64,000 nucleotides of DNA from Bartonella fuyuanensis (GTDB lineage Bacteria > Pseudomonadota > Alphaproteobacteria > Rhizobiales > Rhizobiaceae), in assembly GCF_014197255.1 (NCBI RefSeq), contig NZ_JACIFE010000001.1, positions 310,001 through 374,000 on the forward strand. Reading direction: 5' to 3'. Shown here piece by piece: positions 5,566 to 40,100 of the stretch. The translations under genes were made by a program, and so were the position numbers. The notes beneath the pieces are model-generated. The model saw only the letters and a list, made by a program, of their open reading frames with translations, did no database searches and was not told the DNA's origin. Position 1 is the stretch's first letter. Each line of letters begins with the position of its first letter.

Positions 5566-6062
5566 TTGTCAGCTTTTTAAACGGATATATTGGCTCATCA
5601 TATTATTTATAAGATTAATTCTTTTCCCACCCTAAGGACCAAGATTCTTAACAACCCTTTCGGGTCTGTAAATAGTTCAACTTCCCATTAAGCGGATTCC
5701 ATTTGGCTTTCCACACATGCGGTTTACTGACATAAGACTCAATAAGCAAAACTTAAAAATATATATGATGCATTTAAAAACTTAATGTACCAAGGAAGTT
5801 TAAGCTAAGGAAGCTTAAATATTTTATTATCATTGTTTACAAATCAACTTTTTGAATTTTAAAGGTTTTGTGCATAATTTTCTTTGTTCATAAAAATTAT
5901 TTCATAAATATATCATTAATCAATTGCTTTTAAAAAGTTTATTATTTCATATGCATTTTGAATGTGGGAAAATTATATCTAAAACTTGAGGGAAAAGTTT
6001 CTTTCATCATTCTAACAAATAAGCAAAGTTAAAAAGAGCATCTCATAAAATCTTTTATGTCA
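5566..6062. other. Gap without recognisable gene
   Basis: About 500 AT-rich bases lie between convergent pncB and the DUF454 gene. No frame longer than about 60 codons stands out, and there is no tRNA and no clear terminator with a T-tract. A short direct repeat (AAGGAAG followed by TTTAA or CTTAA) occurs near 5789-5818. I see nothing else to call. Confidence 0.6.
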
Positions 6063-36504: not shown

Positions 36505-37116
36505 CTAGAGAGGTAAAAATTTTTCTAGAACGATTTTATGGTTTTCTGAAATACCTAAGGAATTATGAGTTGCGGCAATAATCATACCACCTTGATTGAG
36601 ATGACGTTGGAAAATACGAGCAAGAAGTTTCTGAGCATGGTTATCAAGACCAGATATTGGTTCATCTAAAATCCAAATAGGTCGGTAGGAGAGCAAAAGG
36701 CGGGCAATAGCTATACGTCTTTGTTGTCCAGTTGACAGAATGTTAAAGGGTAAGTATTCAAGATCAGAAAGACCAATTTCAGCAAGGACTTCATGCACAA
36801 AGCGTAAATGTTGACCATAAAACTCTGCCCAAAATTGCAAATTTTCAATGACAGATAAGAGAGGTTTCATAGCATTTTGAGGACCAAGATAATGACATGC
36901 AGTTGCAACCGGGTATGTTTGTCCATGGCTTTTAAGTATTATATGTCCTTCAGCAGCTTCAAGAAGACCAGCGATGATTCGTAATAATGTAGATTTTCCG
37001 ATACCATTTGGTCCAATGATTGTCATAAGTTGCTGTGGAAATAAACGAAAGGAAAGACCTTTGAACAGAATTTCCTCATTTCTATAAGCTGCTAAATTTT
37101 TGCCTAATAATACCAT
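36505..37116 (-). CDS. ccmA: Heme exporter ATP-binding protein CcmA
   Basis: 203 residues, a short ABC ATPase as usual for CcmA. Walker A is GPNGIGKST and the signature is LSTGQQRR, with Ser-Thr in place of the second Ser-Gly as in many CcmA proteins. Walker B is IWILDEP and the switch His is in AATHN. ATP hydrolysis drives release of heme-bound CcmE. First gene of ccmABCDG, divergent from acnA. ccmE, ccmF and ccmH are not in the window. Confidence 0.93.
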   Translation of the reverse strand: MVLLGKNLAAYRNEEILFKGLSFRLFPQQLMTIIGPNGIGKSTLLRIIAGLLEAAEGHIILKSHGQTYPVATACHYLGPQNAMKPLLSVIENLQFWAEFYGQHLRFVHEVLAEIGLSDLEYLPFNILSTGQQRRIAIARLLLSYRPIWILDEPISGLDNHAQKLLARIFQRHLNQGGMIIAATHNSLGISENHKIVLEKFLPL

Positions 37117-37290
37117 GTGAGTGCTTATTTTGCTTTAATTTTCATATTCTTTATTGCATTGTAAAATAAAAAACACGTTTTTTATGCAATTGTCCCTAGA
37201 ATAGTTCTAGAAATAGTTCTATAAAAGATACCTTACATCAGTATTTGGTGTAAAAGATTTTTGGCGCTAATTTCTGTATTTGCCTATGAT

Positions 37291-37362
37291 GAAGGTGGAG
37301 GGGGAAATGGATAGCGGAGGTACTGCGTCTGCGCTCAAACTGCGACCTTGACTCGTAGTTTG
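37291..37362 (+). promoter_or_regulatory. Possible leader peptide and hairpin before acnA
   Basis: A 14-codon frame at 37307-37351 (MDSGGTASALKLRP, then TGA) has a strong AGGTGGAGGGGG ribosome site. Its last codons form the 5' arm of a 10-bp hairpin (CAAACTGCGA / TCGTAGTTTG, one G-T pair, 7-base loop, 37336-37362). The acnA start lies about 50 bases further on. This part is GC-richer than its surroundings. Function is unknown; translation of the short frame could control the structure. Confidence 0.4.
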
Positions 37363-37412
37363 GGTTGTTCATTCCTAGAAATTGGGTGGTTTTAGTATGA
37401 GAGTGGACAGTC

Positions 37413-40100
37413 ATGACTCAAATTGATAGTTTCAATTGTCGCAGAATGTTAAATGTTGGTGGCAAAAGATATACTTATTATAGCTTAATCGAAGCGGAAA
37501 AGAATGGACTTGAAGGTATTTCCCATTTGCCGTTTTCGATGAAAGTTATTCTGGAGAATTTATTGCGATTTGAAGATGGTCGCACGGTTAAAAAGGAAGA
37601 TATCCTTAATGTTGCTAAGTGGTTAAGCGACAAAGGAAGTGCGCGAGCAGAAATTGCTTACCGTCCTGCGCGTGTTCTTATGCAGGATTTTACAGGTGTT
37701 CCCGCAGTTGTTGATCTTTCTGCAATGCGTGATGCTATGGTCAAACTTGGCGGTAACGCTGAAAAAATCAATCCTCTCATCCCTGTTGATCTCATCATTG
37801 ATCATTCGGTTATTGTTGATGATTTTGGTAATCCCATGGCTTTTAAAGAAAATGTTGAGCATGAATATGAACGCAATGGTGAACGCTATCGTTTCCTTAA
37901 ATGGGGACAGCAAGCTTTTCAAAATTTTCGCGTTGTTCCTCCGGGTACAGGGATTTGTCATCAAGTTAATCTAGAATATTTAGCGCAGTGTGTGTGGATG
38001 AAGACTGAAGAGGGGGGGGAGACGGTTTATCCTGACACCTGTGTGGGAACTGATTCGCATACGACGATGGTGAATGGTTTAGGTGTTTTAGGTTGGGGTG
38101 TTGGTGGTATTGAAGCAGAAGCAGCAATGTTAGGCCAACCTGTTTCTATGTTGTTACCTGAAGTGATTGGTTTTCGTCTAACAGGTAAACTTAAAGAAGG
38201 TGTAACAGCTACTGACCTTGTGTTGACGGTGACCCAAGTGTTACGCCAGAAGGGTGTTGTTGGTAAATTTGTTGAGTTTTTTGGTCCTGGTTTGGAGCAT
38301 ATGACGCTTGCTGATCGCGCAACAATTGGGAATATGGCACCTGAATATGGAGCAACTTGTGGTTTTTTTCCTATTGATAAGGAAACAGTGCGTTATCTCA
38401 ATATGACAGGGCGTGATAAAAATCGGATTGCCTTAGTGGAGGCTTACTCCAAAGCACAAGGGATGTGGCATGAGGAAATGGTGGCTAATCCCATTTTTAG
38501 TGATACAATTGAATTAGATATGGGAACAGTTGTACCTTCTATGGCTGGGCCTAAACGTCCTGAAGGGCGAATTGCATTGGAGAATGTTGGGCAGGGTTTT
38601 GAGAAGGCATTAGTTGAAGACTATAAAAAGACTTCTGGACAAGATGAACGCTATCAGGTTGAAAGTGAAGAATATACACTTGGTCATGGTGATGTGGTGA
38701 TCGCTGCGATTACTTCTTGTACAAATACATCGAATCCAAGTGTTCTTATTGCAGCAGGTCTTTTGGCACGAAATGCCGTAGCAAAAGGCCTCAAGAGTAA
38801 ACCATGGGTAAAAACTTCTCTTGCACCTGGTTCACAGGTTGTTGAAGCTTATCTTCAAAATTCGGGTTTGCAAAAAGATTTAGATGCGTTGGGATTTAAC
38901 TTAGTAGGGTTTGGATGTACAACATGTATTGGGAATTCTGGTCCTTTGCATCCATCTATTTCTAAAACGATTAATGACAATGGTGTAATTGCAGCTGCAG
39001 TTCTTTCAGGAAATCGTAATTTTGAAGGGCGTGTTTCCCCTGATGTGCAAGCGAATTACTTAGCTTCACCACCGTTAGTTGTTGCACATGCACTTGCTGG
39101 GACGGTATGTAAAGATTTAACCAAAGAACCTCTTGGTGAAGGTTCAAATGGCCAACCGATTTACTTGAGAGATATTTGGCCAACCTCTCAAGAAATACAG
39201 GAATTTATCGAAGAAAATGTTACGCGTAAGGTCTTTGCTGAAAAGTATGCGGATGTCTTTAAGGGAGATGAAAATTGGCAAAAAGTGCAGATCCCTACAG
39301 GTTCTACCTATTCTTGGGATGAGCAATCCACATATGTACGTAATCCACCTTATTTCGATAATATGCAGAAAGTTCCTGATATTCTAACAGATATTAAGGA
39401 TGCACGGATTTTAGGTTTATTCGGTGATAAAATTACGACGGATCATATTTCTCCTGCTGGTTCTATTAAGGCAGCTTCTCCTGCTGGAAAATATTTAATG
39501 GATCATGATGTTAAAGTGGCTGATTTTAATCAATATGGAACGCGCCGTGGGAATCATGAAGTTATGGTTCGTGGGACCTTTGCTAATATTCGCATTCGTA
39601 ATTTCATATTAGGAGAAAATGGTCAAGAAGGGGGTTACACGGTTCATTATCCGTCAAAGGAAGAACAAACCATTTACGATGCAGCAATGGCGTATAAACA
39701 AGAAGGTGTACCGCTCGTTGTTTTTGCTGGTATTGAATATGGCAATGGATCATCACGCGATTGGGCTGCCAAAGGTACCAATCTTCTTGGTATAAGAGCG
39801 GTGATTGTCCAATCTTTTGAAAGGATTCACCGCTCTAATCTTGTTGGTATGGGCATTATCCCCTTTGTCTTTGAAGAGGGTGTAAGCTGGAAATCTTTGG
39901 GCTTAAAGGGAGATGAAAAGGTGACAATTGAAGGGATTCATAATTTGAAGCCTCGTCAAAAAACAGTAGCGACAATTACCTTTTCAGATGGTAGGGTAAA
40001 AATTGTTCCATTATTATGTCGTGTTGATACTGAAGATGAGCTAGATTATTTGCATCATGGTGGAATTTTGCAATATGTTTTACGTAAGCTAGCTGTTTAA
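37413..40100 (+). CDS. acnA: Aconitate hydratase A
   Basis: 895 residues, the AcnA/IRP1 type. It isomerises citrate and isocitrate in the TCA cycle with a 4Fe-4S cluster. The cluster Cys are visible in ITSCTNTSNPSV and GFGCTTCIGNSGPL. The N-terminal VLMQDFTGVPAVVDLSAMRDA, GTDSHTTMVNGLGVLGWGVGGIEAEAAMLGQP, and the C-terminal swivel-domain GIEYGNGSSRDWAAKG are intact. Divergent from ccmA with about 300 bases between them, which hold the possible leader. Confidence 0.97.
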   Translation: MTQIDSFNCRRMLNVGGKRYTYYSLIEAEKNGLEGISHLPFSMKVILENLLRFEDGRTVKKEDILNVAKWLSDKGSARAEIAYRPARVLMQDFTGVPAVVDLSAMRDAMVKLGGNAEKINPLIPVDLIIDHSVIVDDFGNPMAFKENVEHEYERNGERYRFLKWGQQAFQNFRVVPPGTGICHQVNLEYLAQCVWMKTEEGGETVYPDTCVGTDSHTTMVNGLGVLGWGVGGIEAEAAMLGQPVSMLLPEVIGFRLTGKLKEGVTATDLVLTVTQVLRQKGVVGKFVEFFGPGLEHMTLADRATIGNMAPEYGATCGFFPIDKETVRYLNMTGRDKNRIALVEAYSKAQGMWHEEMVANPIFSDTIELDMGTVVPSMAGPKRPEGRIALENVGQGFEKALVEDYKKTSGQDERYQVESEEYTLGHGDVVIAAITSCTNTSNPSVLIAAGLLARNAVAKGLKSKPWVKTSLAPGSQVVEAYLQNSGLQKDLDALGFNLVGFGCTTCIGNSGPLHPSISKTINDNGVIAAAVLSGNRNFEGRVSPDVQANYLASPPLVVAHALAGTVCKDLTKEPLGEGSNGQPIYLRDIWPTSQEIQEFIEENVTRKVFAEKYADVFKGDENWQKVQIPTGSTYSWDEQSTYVRNPPYFDNMQKVPDILTDIKDARILGLFGDKITTDHISPAGSIKAASPAGKYLMDHDVKVADFNQYGTRRGNHEVMVRGTFANIRIRNFILGENGQEGGYTVHYPSKEEQTIYDAAMAYKQEGVPLVVFAGIEYGNGSSRDWAAKGTNLLGIRAVIVQSFERIHRSNLVGMGIIPFVFEEGVSWKSLGLKGDEKVTIEGIHNLKPRQKTVATITFSDGRVKIVPLLCRVDTEDELDYLHHGGILQYVLRKLAV

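Follow-up and report, generated by a model that had tools for sequence, protein, structure and literature searches.

The acnA gene of Bartonella fuyuanensis is almost certainly preceded by a conserved structured leader, and the sequence of this cis-acting RNA of about 180 nt suggests, with somewhat better than even chances, that it works as a translational RNA switch. The stretch of DNA analysed here, referred to as the window, comprises 64,000 nucleotides (positions 310,001 to 374,000 of contig NZ_JACIFE010000001.1, RefSeq assembly GCF_014197255.1). All features are located on the + strand unless stated otherwise.

Aconitase is an iron-sulfur enzyme and stands at the entrance to the tricarboxylate cycle. 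The window codes for an aconitate hydratase of 895 aa (acnA, 37413-40100), assigned from the sequence and its relatives; among the best 80 of 584 aconitase relatives the closest named loci belong to Bartonella, with up to 96% identity. A likely -10 element (CTATAA, 37219-37224) has a similar counterpart just 5' of the hairpin P0 described below in most relatives compared, and from it transcription is predicted to start near 37230, which would place the complete element within the mRNA. The palindrome CTAGAA-TAG-TTCTAG (37196-37210, no strand assigned) lies in the promoter just before the -10 element, has variants upstream of acnA in many relatives and may be an iron-regulator site of the Irr type. 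The original prediction of a control element ahead of acnA was probably right, and the GC excess it had pointed out was confirmed: positions 37291-37412 contain 50.0% GC, compared with 29.7% in 37001-37290; the value for the initial 300 bases of acnA is 39.3%. The segment 37250-37480 folds better than its shuffled versions (z -2.75), with only 1 of 200 shuffles equally good. The leader is present as a single copy in the genome of the window, and a search for plasmid copies of 37200-37412 found none at E 1e-5.

Core fold of the leader and the short open reading frame

A shared element was seen in the 170 bases upstream of acnA in each of the best 80 of 584 relatives. Its core in Brucella- and Phyllobacterium-type genomes reads CGGGACGGACAGCGGAAATGACTGCACCCGCACC...GGCGTTCGTCC; genomes of the Rhizobium and Mesorhizobium types contain the same core with compensating changes at its ends, and the window version can be aligned with it. 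The stem P1 closes a junction with two hairpins. Its 5' strand, strand A (37301-37312), pairs through 37306-37312 with 37367-37373, the P1 3' side, which is part of strand B (37363-37374). The hairpin P2 (37314-37332) consists in the window of GCGG, the loop AGGTACTGCGT and CTGC, and in the relatives of GCGG...CCGC. It is followed by the hairpin P3 (37334-37364), which was delimited by folding and alignment. P3 includes the 10-bp hairpin of the original prediction, which is indeed present at 37336-37362 if G-U pairs are included, about 50 bases 5' of acnA.

Covariation supports this fold. In an alignment of 40 sequences (A1) P1 was paired in 95.8% of the cells with double changes in five of nine pairs, and a later test gave 93.2% and six of nine pairs. 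In A1, 91.2% of the cells were paired, and only 36.5-47.7% remained so after the 3' partners had been slid by one to three columns. At the base of P3 the fit to this alignment was poor (68.3%). A covariance model, R1, matched the window at 37301-37376 and all 80 acnA loci of the best 80 of 584 relatives, 39 of which had been used to build it. R1 also matched 90 of 90 other stretches; this set includes the window and stretches that had been fetched for a match and is therefore no independent test. The element is thus a structured, covarying 5'-leader domain of the kind found in riboswitches. The lowest R1 score (32.2 bits) was obtained for Bartonella doshiae (L084, 2884-2959): by appearance P2 is largely deleted, whereas P3 and the ribosome-site region are kept, a pattern that would fit a decaying sensor part.

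The 5' strand of P1 also carries the ATG of a 14-codon frame (37307-37351), and it had been proposed that ribosomes translating this frame open the hairpin in the manner of a leader peptide. The frame and its good ribosome site exist, with the purine-rich AGGTGGAGGGGGAA ahead of the ATG at 37307, and other Bartonella also have frames of 14 to 31 codons at this place. The stop codon TGA (37349-37351) is located in the hairpin loop (37346-37352) and not, as had been stated, in the 5' arm (37336-37345). When the proposed comparison with relatives was carried out, the pairing proved to be kept with compensatory changes; the frame and the codons of its peptide were not conserved. Among 30 distinct peptides from matched Bartonella leaders only two have 14 codons (the window and L005) and one has 15, while the remaining ones have 23 (two), 27 (two), 29 (seven), 30 (one) or 31 codons (15). 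The window frame is short because one base of the P2 loop that most relatives possess is missing. In 20 unique Bartonella sequences of the same length the variable columns were distributed over the codon positions as 18/17/12, without an excess at the third position, and the ratio of nonsynonymous to synonymous changes in the short frame was 4.4 against 2.3 expected. Outside Bartonella the codon aligned with the window ATG is usually ACG or GCG (GTG in L108, ATG in L109), and the frames that start from the AUG of the P2 loop in other genera vary from 6 to over 40 codons and share no common end. A conserved short frame with selected codons, the mark of a leader-peptide attenuator, was therefore not found, and as the frame lacks both conservation and a codon-position signal, the conserved feature is the RNA structure and not the peptide. 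Leader-peptide control, which the frame lengths and the codon-position test refute as a conserved function, is accordingly hardly tenable as an explanation for the window either.

That P3 acts as an intrinsic terminator or attenuator is just as improbable. A pattern scan flagged 37333-37365 as terminator-like (one found, 0.6 expected), but the tail TGTTCATTCC is only loosely T-rich and contains no clean run of T after the GC stem, and it coincides with the conserved strand B in P1.

Contact between the loops of P0 and P2

A further hairpin, P0 (37233-37253), is located upstream of the core, with a stem of 37233-37239 and 37247-37253 and the loop AGTATTT (37240-37246). In most leaders compared it is found 5' of P1 and closely follows a -10-like CTATAA or CTATAT. 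It was present in 123 of 123 leaders that fitted the first pattern, usually with the loop AGCGGUC, and its stem shows compensating variation among the relatives (90.4% of cells paired, double changes in six of seven pairs). Between the loops of P0 and P2 there is complementarity over six bases, so that the two hairpins can form a kissing contact of six pairs. Of 150 leaders fitting the P2 pattern 147 contained P0 by rule, and 145 of these form all six pairs. The exceptions, L020 and L048, represent one Bartonella type with five and four pairs; in the three leaders without P0 by rule (L276, L277, L279) the loops are complementary by eye.

The best evidence for the contact comes from divergent genomes (L154 among them), because altered P0 loops go with matching P2 loops there. 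The P0 loop AGCGACC is accompanied by GGUCGU or GGUCGC in P2 and AGCAGCC by GGUUGC or GGCUGC; where the P0 loop is AGCGGCC, the second position is invariably G. All six pairs are formed by 14 of the 16 distinct loop combinations, compared with a mean of 9.2 and a maximum of 13 after swapping (0 of 5000 swaps as good). When 92 distinct leaders were aligned (A4), the kissing helix was paired in 99.5% of 552 cells and had 37 cells with double changes versus 2.6 in shuffles (0 of 500); a slid register gave at most 55.6% paired cells. The bases flanking this helix are near-invariant. Because the selection patterns prescribed both the P2 stem and four of the seven bases in the P0 loop, the evidence for kissing is confined to positions that were free to vary. 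Most Bartonella of the window type lie outside the P2 pattern behind the count of 150 leaders. On a FastTree phylogeny of 112 AcnA rows (148 acnA loci minus 25 without one of the two loop patterns and 11 identical proteins) we counted 14 changes on the P0 side and 35 on the P2 side, and broken pairs were confined to the two rows of the Bartonella type of L020 and L048. The number of differing pairs was too small for a test of independent pairs on the tree to become significant; no pair pointed in the wrong direction.

The lineage of the window itself departs from this picture. In window-like Bartonella the loops are out of the ancestral kissing register. Seven potential loop pairs exist in the window (AGGUACU with AGUAUUU) and three to five in its relatives. 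Over 15 loop combinations of this lineage the mean run was 4.60 as compared with 4.40 in swaps, and 56 of 2000 swaps were as high. Since swapped loops do nearly as well, kissing is not established in this lineage. The canonical form is retained in other Bartonella (L049-L056, among them B. apis and B. tamiae). The window lineage has kept the stems together with the option of the alternative pairing of strand B described below, but its kissing loops have drifted, so that sensing there may be altered or lost.

For an additional stem, P4, in which the linker downstream of P0 would pair with bases following strand B, the evidence is only suggestive: an energy test over 107 leaders gave a median z of 0.23, and a specific run test over 89 leaders gave 5.35 versus 5.04 in swaps (0 of 300). 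Such a stem would enclose P1; in relatives it could join, for example, CGCCGAA with TTTGGCG or TTCGGTG, at places that correspond to 37263-37270 of the window and to the bases following strand B.

Possible pairing of strand B with the ribosome-binding region of acnA

Strand B has a second possible partner, the ribosome-binding region of acnA (strand C, 37401-37412 in the window), to which it is complementary there over 12 pairs; such complementarity also occurs in the relatives from Bartonella, Brucella and Phyllobacterium. Among 53 unique leaders of this group B:C reached 8/8 pairs in 45 and 7/8 in eight, compared with a shuffle mean of 6.5, and 43 of the 45 complete sites are positioned three to six bases before the start codon. 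In the other two (L022, L023) the reported site is 23 bases away and another one is located at the start. Four of the eight 7/8 sites have a distance of 22-25 bases. Position 5 of strand B forms A-U in 23 and G-C in 23 of the 53 leaders. For single leaders the signal is often weak: the share of shuffles reaching 8/8 ranged from 0 to 0.155 (0.04 for the window), many Bartonella leaders were equalled by 1 to 16% of their shuffles (4% for the window), and for the eight 7/8 leaders the share of shuffles as good was 0.43 to 0.72.

The energies of the two states are close to each other, with the kissing helix left out of all calculations. In the window the B:C duplex of 12 pairs has -11.3 kcal/mol versus -9.6 for A:B, and the complete region 37230-37430 folds with -60.1 kcal/mol if A:B and with -57.7 if B:C is formed. 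For eight further leaders, with P0 omitted from the fold, the gap between the states was 0.2 to 6.1 kcal/mol; A:B had the lower energy in three of them, B:C in the other five.

Outside the group the pairing looks different. Of 170 leaders, five had been dropped, as a start codon was absent by rule (L208, L218, L257, L095, L084). Over all 138 unique leaders B:C was not significant (median z -0.34; 35 below -1.5), and in the Rhizobium, Mesorhizobium and Hoeflea types it was mostly equalled by shuffles. The near-shuffle level in these types counts against a B:C switch common to the whole family. A candidate for a second strand directed against the ribosome site was seen in divergent leaders: GCGUGUUCC, in or beside P3, is perfectly complementary over 9-10 bases to the ribosome site GGAACACGC. 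This complementarity, first spotted by eye, occurs in six of 11 divergent leaders (L275, L276, L281, L282, L283, L296); the other five (L262, L264, L266, L269, L273) lack the GCGUGUUCC strand, and their longest run is a different one of 6-10 bases. A mutually exclusive expression platform is therefore supported in the Bartonella-Brucella-Phyllobacterium group and in six of 11 divergent leaders, and elsewhere the pairing is mostly at shuffle level. Judged from the pairing pattern, translation of acnA is likely to be switched by the leader in the Bartonella-Brucella-Phyllobacterium group.

According to the geometry, an effector would stabilise the kissing-loop fold, strand B would be held in P1 and the ribosome site would be free (ON); without effector, strand B would leave P1 and cover the ribosome-binding site of acnA (OFF). 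Because B:C was the more stable state in five of the eight folds with kissing ignored, this direction is only what we infer.

The same data can be read as a static structured 5' end, which, independently of any specific effector, would protect the mRNA, set the basal level of translation or react to temperature or magnesium. The position of P0 at the presumed 5' end of the mRNA would suit such a role, as would the lack of support for B:C in much of the family, but a covarying long-range kissing helix with near-invariant flanks and two different strands against the ribosome site seem to be more than basal stability needs. We regard a static role as quite unlikely.

Distribution, comparable systems and possible effectors

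At E <= 0.05, R1 matched 249 of 297 sampled genomes of the window's family, which we take to be GTDB Rhizobiaceae from its named members. Across the order 14 of 297 sampled genomes matched, 12 from the window's family and two weakly and without acnA; across the class there were three matches in 385 genomes, the genome of the window and two weak ones. These searches used strict filters, so that divergent copies can be missed. Inspection by eye and with R1 of the acnA upstream regions of 21 genomes without a match (20 from the family sample and G141 from the order sample; 28 further family genomes are outside this count) revealed the element in three (L290, L293, L296) and a contig end in two (L295, L303), and in the other 16 the element was missing upstream of acnA. 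Five element-less family members among these 16 (L284, L291, L292, L294, L297) have small genomes of 1.1-2.0 Mb. A connection to genome reduction is only a thought, since the other 11 are not small and many small Bartonella genomes retain the element. Among 28 acnA loci outside the family the best R1 match had an E of 0.42 and was located inside a gene. The weak matches outside the family (L123, L124, L162, L163) were rejected, as they occur without acnA and, by eye, show core letters in some cases with the remaining context absent. In the rest of the sampled order and class the element was thus not convincingly found.

In nearly every matched genome acnA is the sole target. A second match was found in four of 249 genomes. 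One of these, G583, possesses two acnA copies, and the match lies before the second; in the other three (L156-L161) the second matches are weak, are not associated with acnA, have no GCGGA[AG]AT core nearby except for L159 and were discarded as extra copies ahead of other genes. Three records deserve separate mention. One genome contains two equally good leader copies (G001:C1:307050-307180 and G001:C2:13661-13791) at 7% contamination, which may be a matter of assembly. The record named Bacillus subtilis strain SK6B4 (L064) is probably mislabelled or contaminated, because its acnA and leader are of the Pseudochrobactrum type; the element is identical to that of L063, L068 and L070. In L100 a TPP riboswitch (RF00059, 64.1 bits, 5788-5901) downstream of acnA is unrelated to the leader element.

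No Rfam 15 family covered the element at the gathering score in the window and nine loci; with E up to 10 there were none, or six snoRNA and miRNA matches far below their thresholds. The texts covered by a literature search contain no description of an acnA leader RNA in these bacteria, which supplementary tables of start sites or sRNAs may already list; the phrase "acnA leader" occurs in one paper, which deals with E. coli CsrA. A word search for acnA and aconit- in main texts on alphaproteobacterial and Bartonella RNAs and on RNA discovery gave no hit. This includes the main texts of two surveys of alphaproteobacterial and bacterial RNA motifs (PMC1273637, PMC2864571), which likewise derived motifs from comparison of upstream regions, Rhizobiales included. 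The phrase "citrate riboswitch" was not found in any paper by the same literature search. To our knowledge, no riboswitch for citrate or isocitrate has been reported.

Translational riboswitches of the SAM-II type in the same bacteria are similar in being 5' leaders with a conserved fold, a pseudoknot-type contact and a ribosome-binding site that can be covered by an alternative strand (PMC9373788, PMC1273637). The acnA leader differs in that only acnA lies downstream, no Rfam family matches and any ligand is hypothetical. The fold of SAM-II is also a different one. Within the switch reading, the effector might be a metabolite of the tricarboxylate cycle such as citrate or isocitrate, so that the substrate would turn its enzyme on; we put this forward tentatively and with low confidence, at less than even chances. 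A metabolite and the AcnA enzyme itself are the leading candidates for what the leader senses.

The latter corresponds to autogenous control, in which cluster-less (apo) aconitase would bind its own leader and set translation or stability, with iron being read via the enzyme. acnA as the single target in nearly every matched genome is what is expected for a self-regulator. Autogenous leaders of ribosomal proteins share with the acnA leader one target gene per genome, a covarying structure and a narrow taxonomic range, although acnA codes for an enzyme and its binding to the leader is conjectural. A precedent for post-transcriptional control of an aconitase mRNA with a possible iron link is E. 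coli apo-AcnB, which is reported to bind its own mRNA, but at the 3'UTR and not in a 5' leader (PMC4150767). A Brucella study reports AcnA at 0.54 within host cells, which its authors link to iron scarcity (PMC5587712). The possible iron-responsive promoter site could already provide iron control, and this would speak against a second iron input through the enzyme. The window leader, as read from its sequence, contains no loop of the eukaryotic CAGUGN type. We consider autogenous control rather unlikely, but it can overlap with the switch reading if the protein acts through the same switch; the readings weighed here overlap in part, and their likelihoods do not sum to one.

A more far-reaching version of the switch reading would be a new riboswitch class in the Rhizobium/Brucella/Bartonella family, in which kissing loops sense citrate, isocitrate or aconitate, perhaps together with a metal, and turn aconitase translation on, with the strand against the ribosome site swapped at least once and the system decaying in the Bartonella lineage of the window. 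We judge this combination to be unlikely as a whole. The fold of the acnA leader is defined enough for direct testing. The switch reading may represent an undescribed way to tune a central metabolic enzyme and, if true, a family-wide RNA switch would mean post-transcriptional control of carbon flow in legume symbionts, plant-associated bacteria and the relatives of Bartonella and Brucella.
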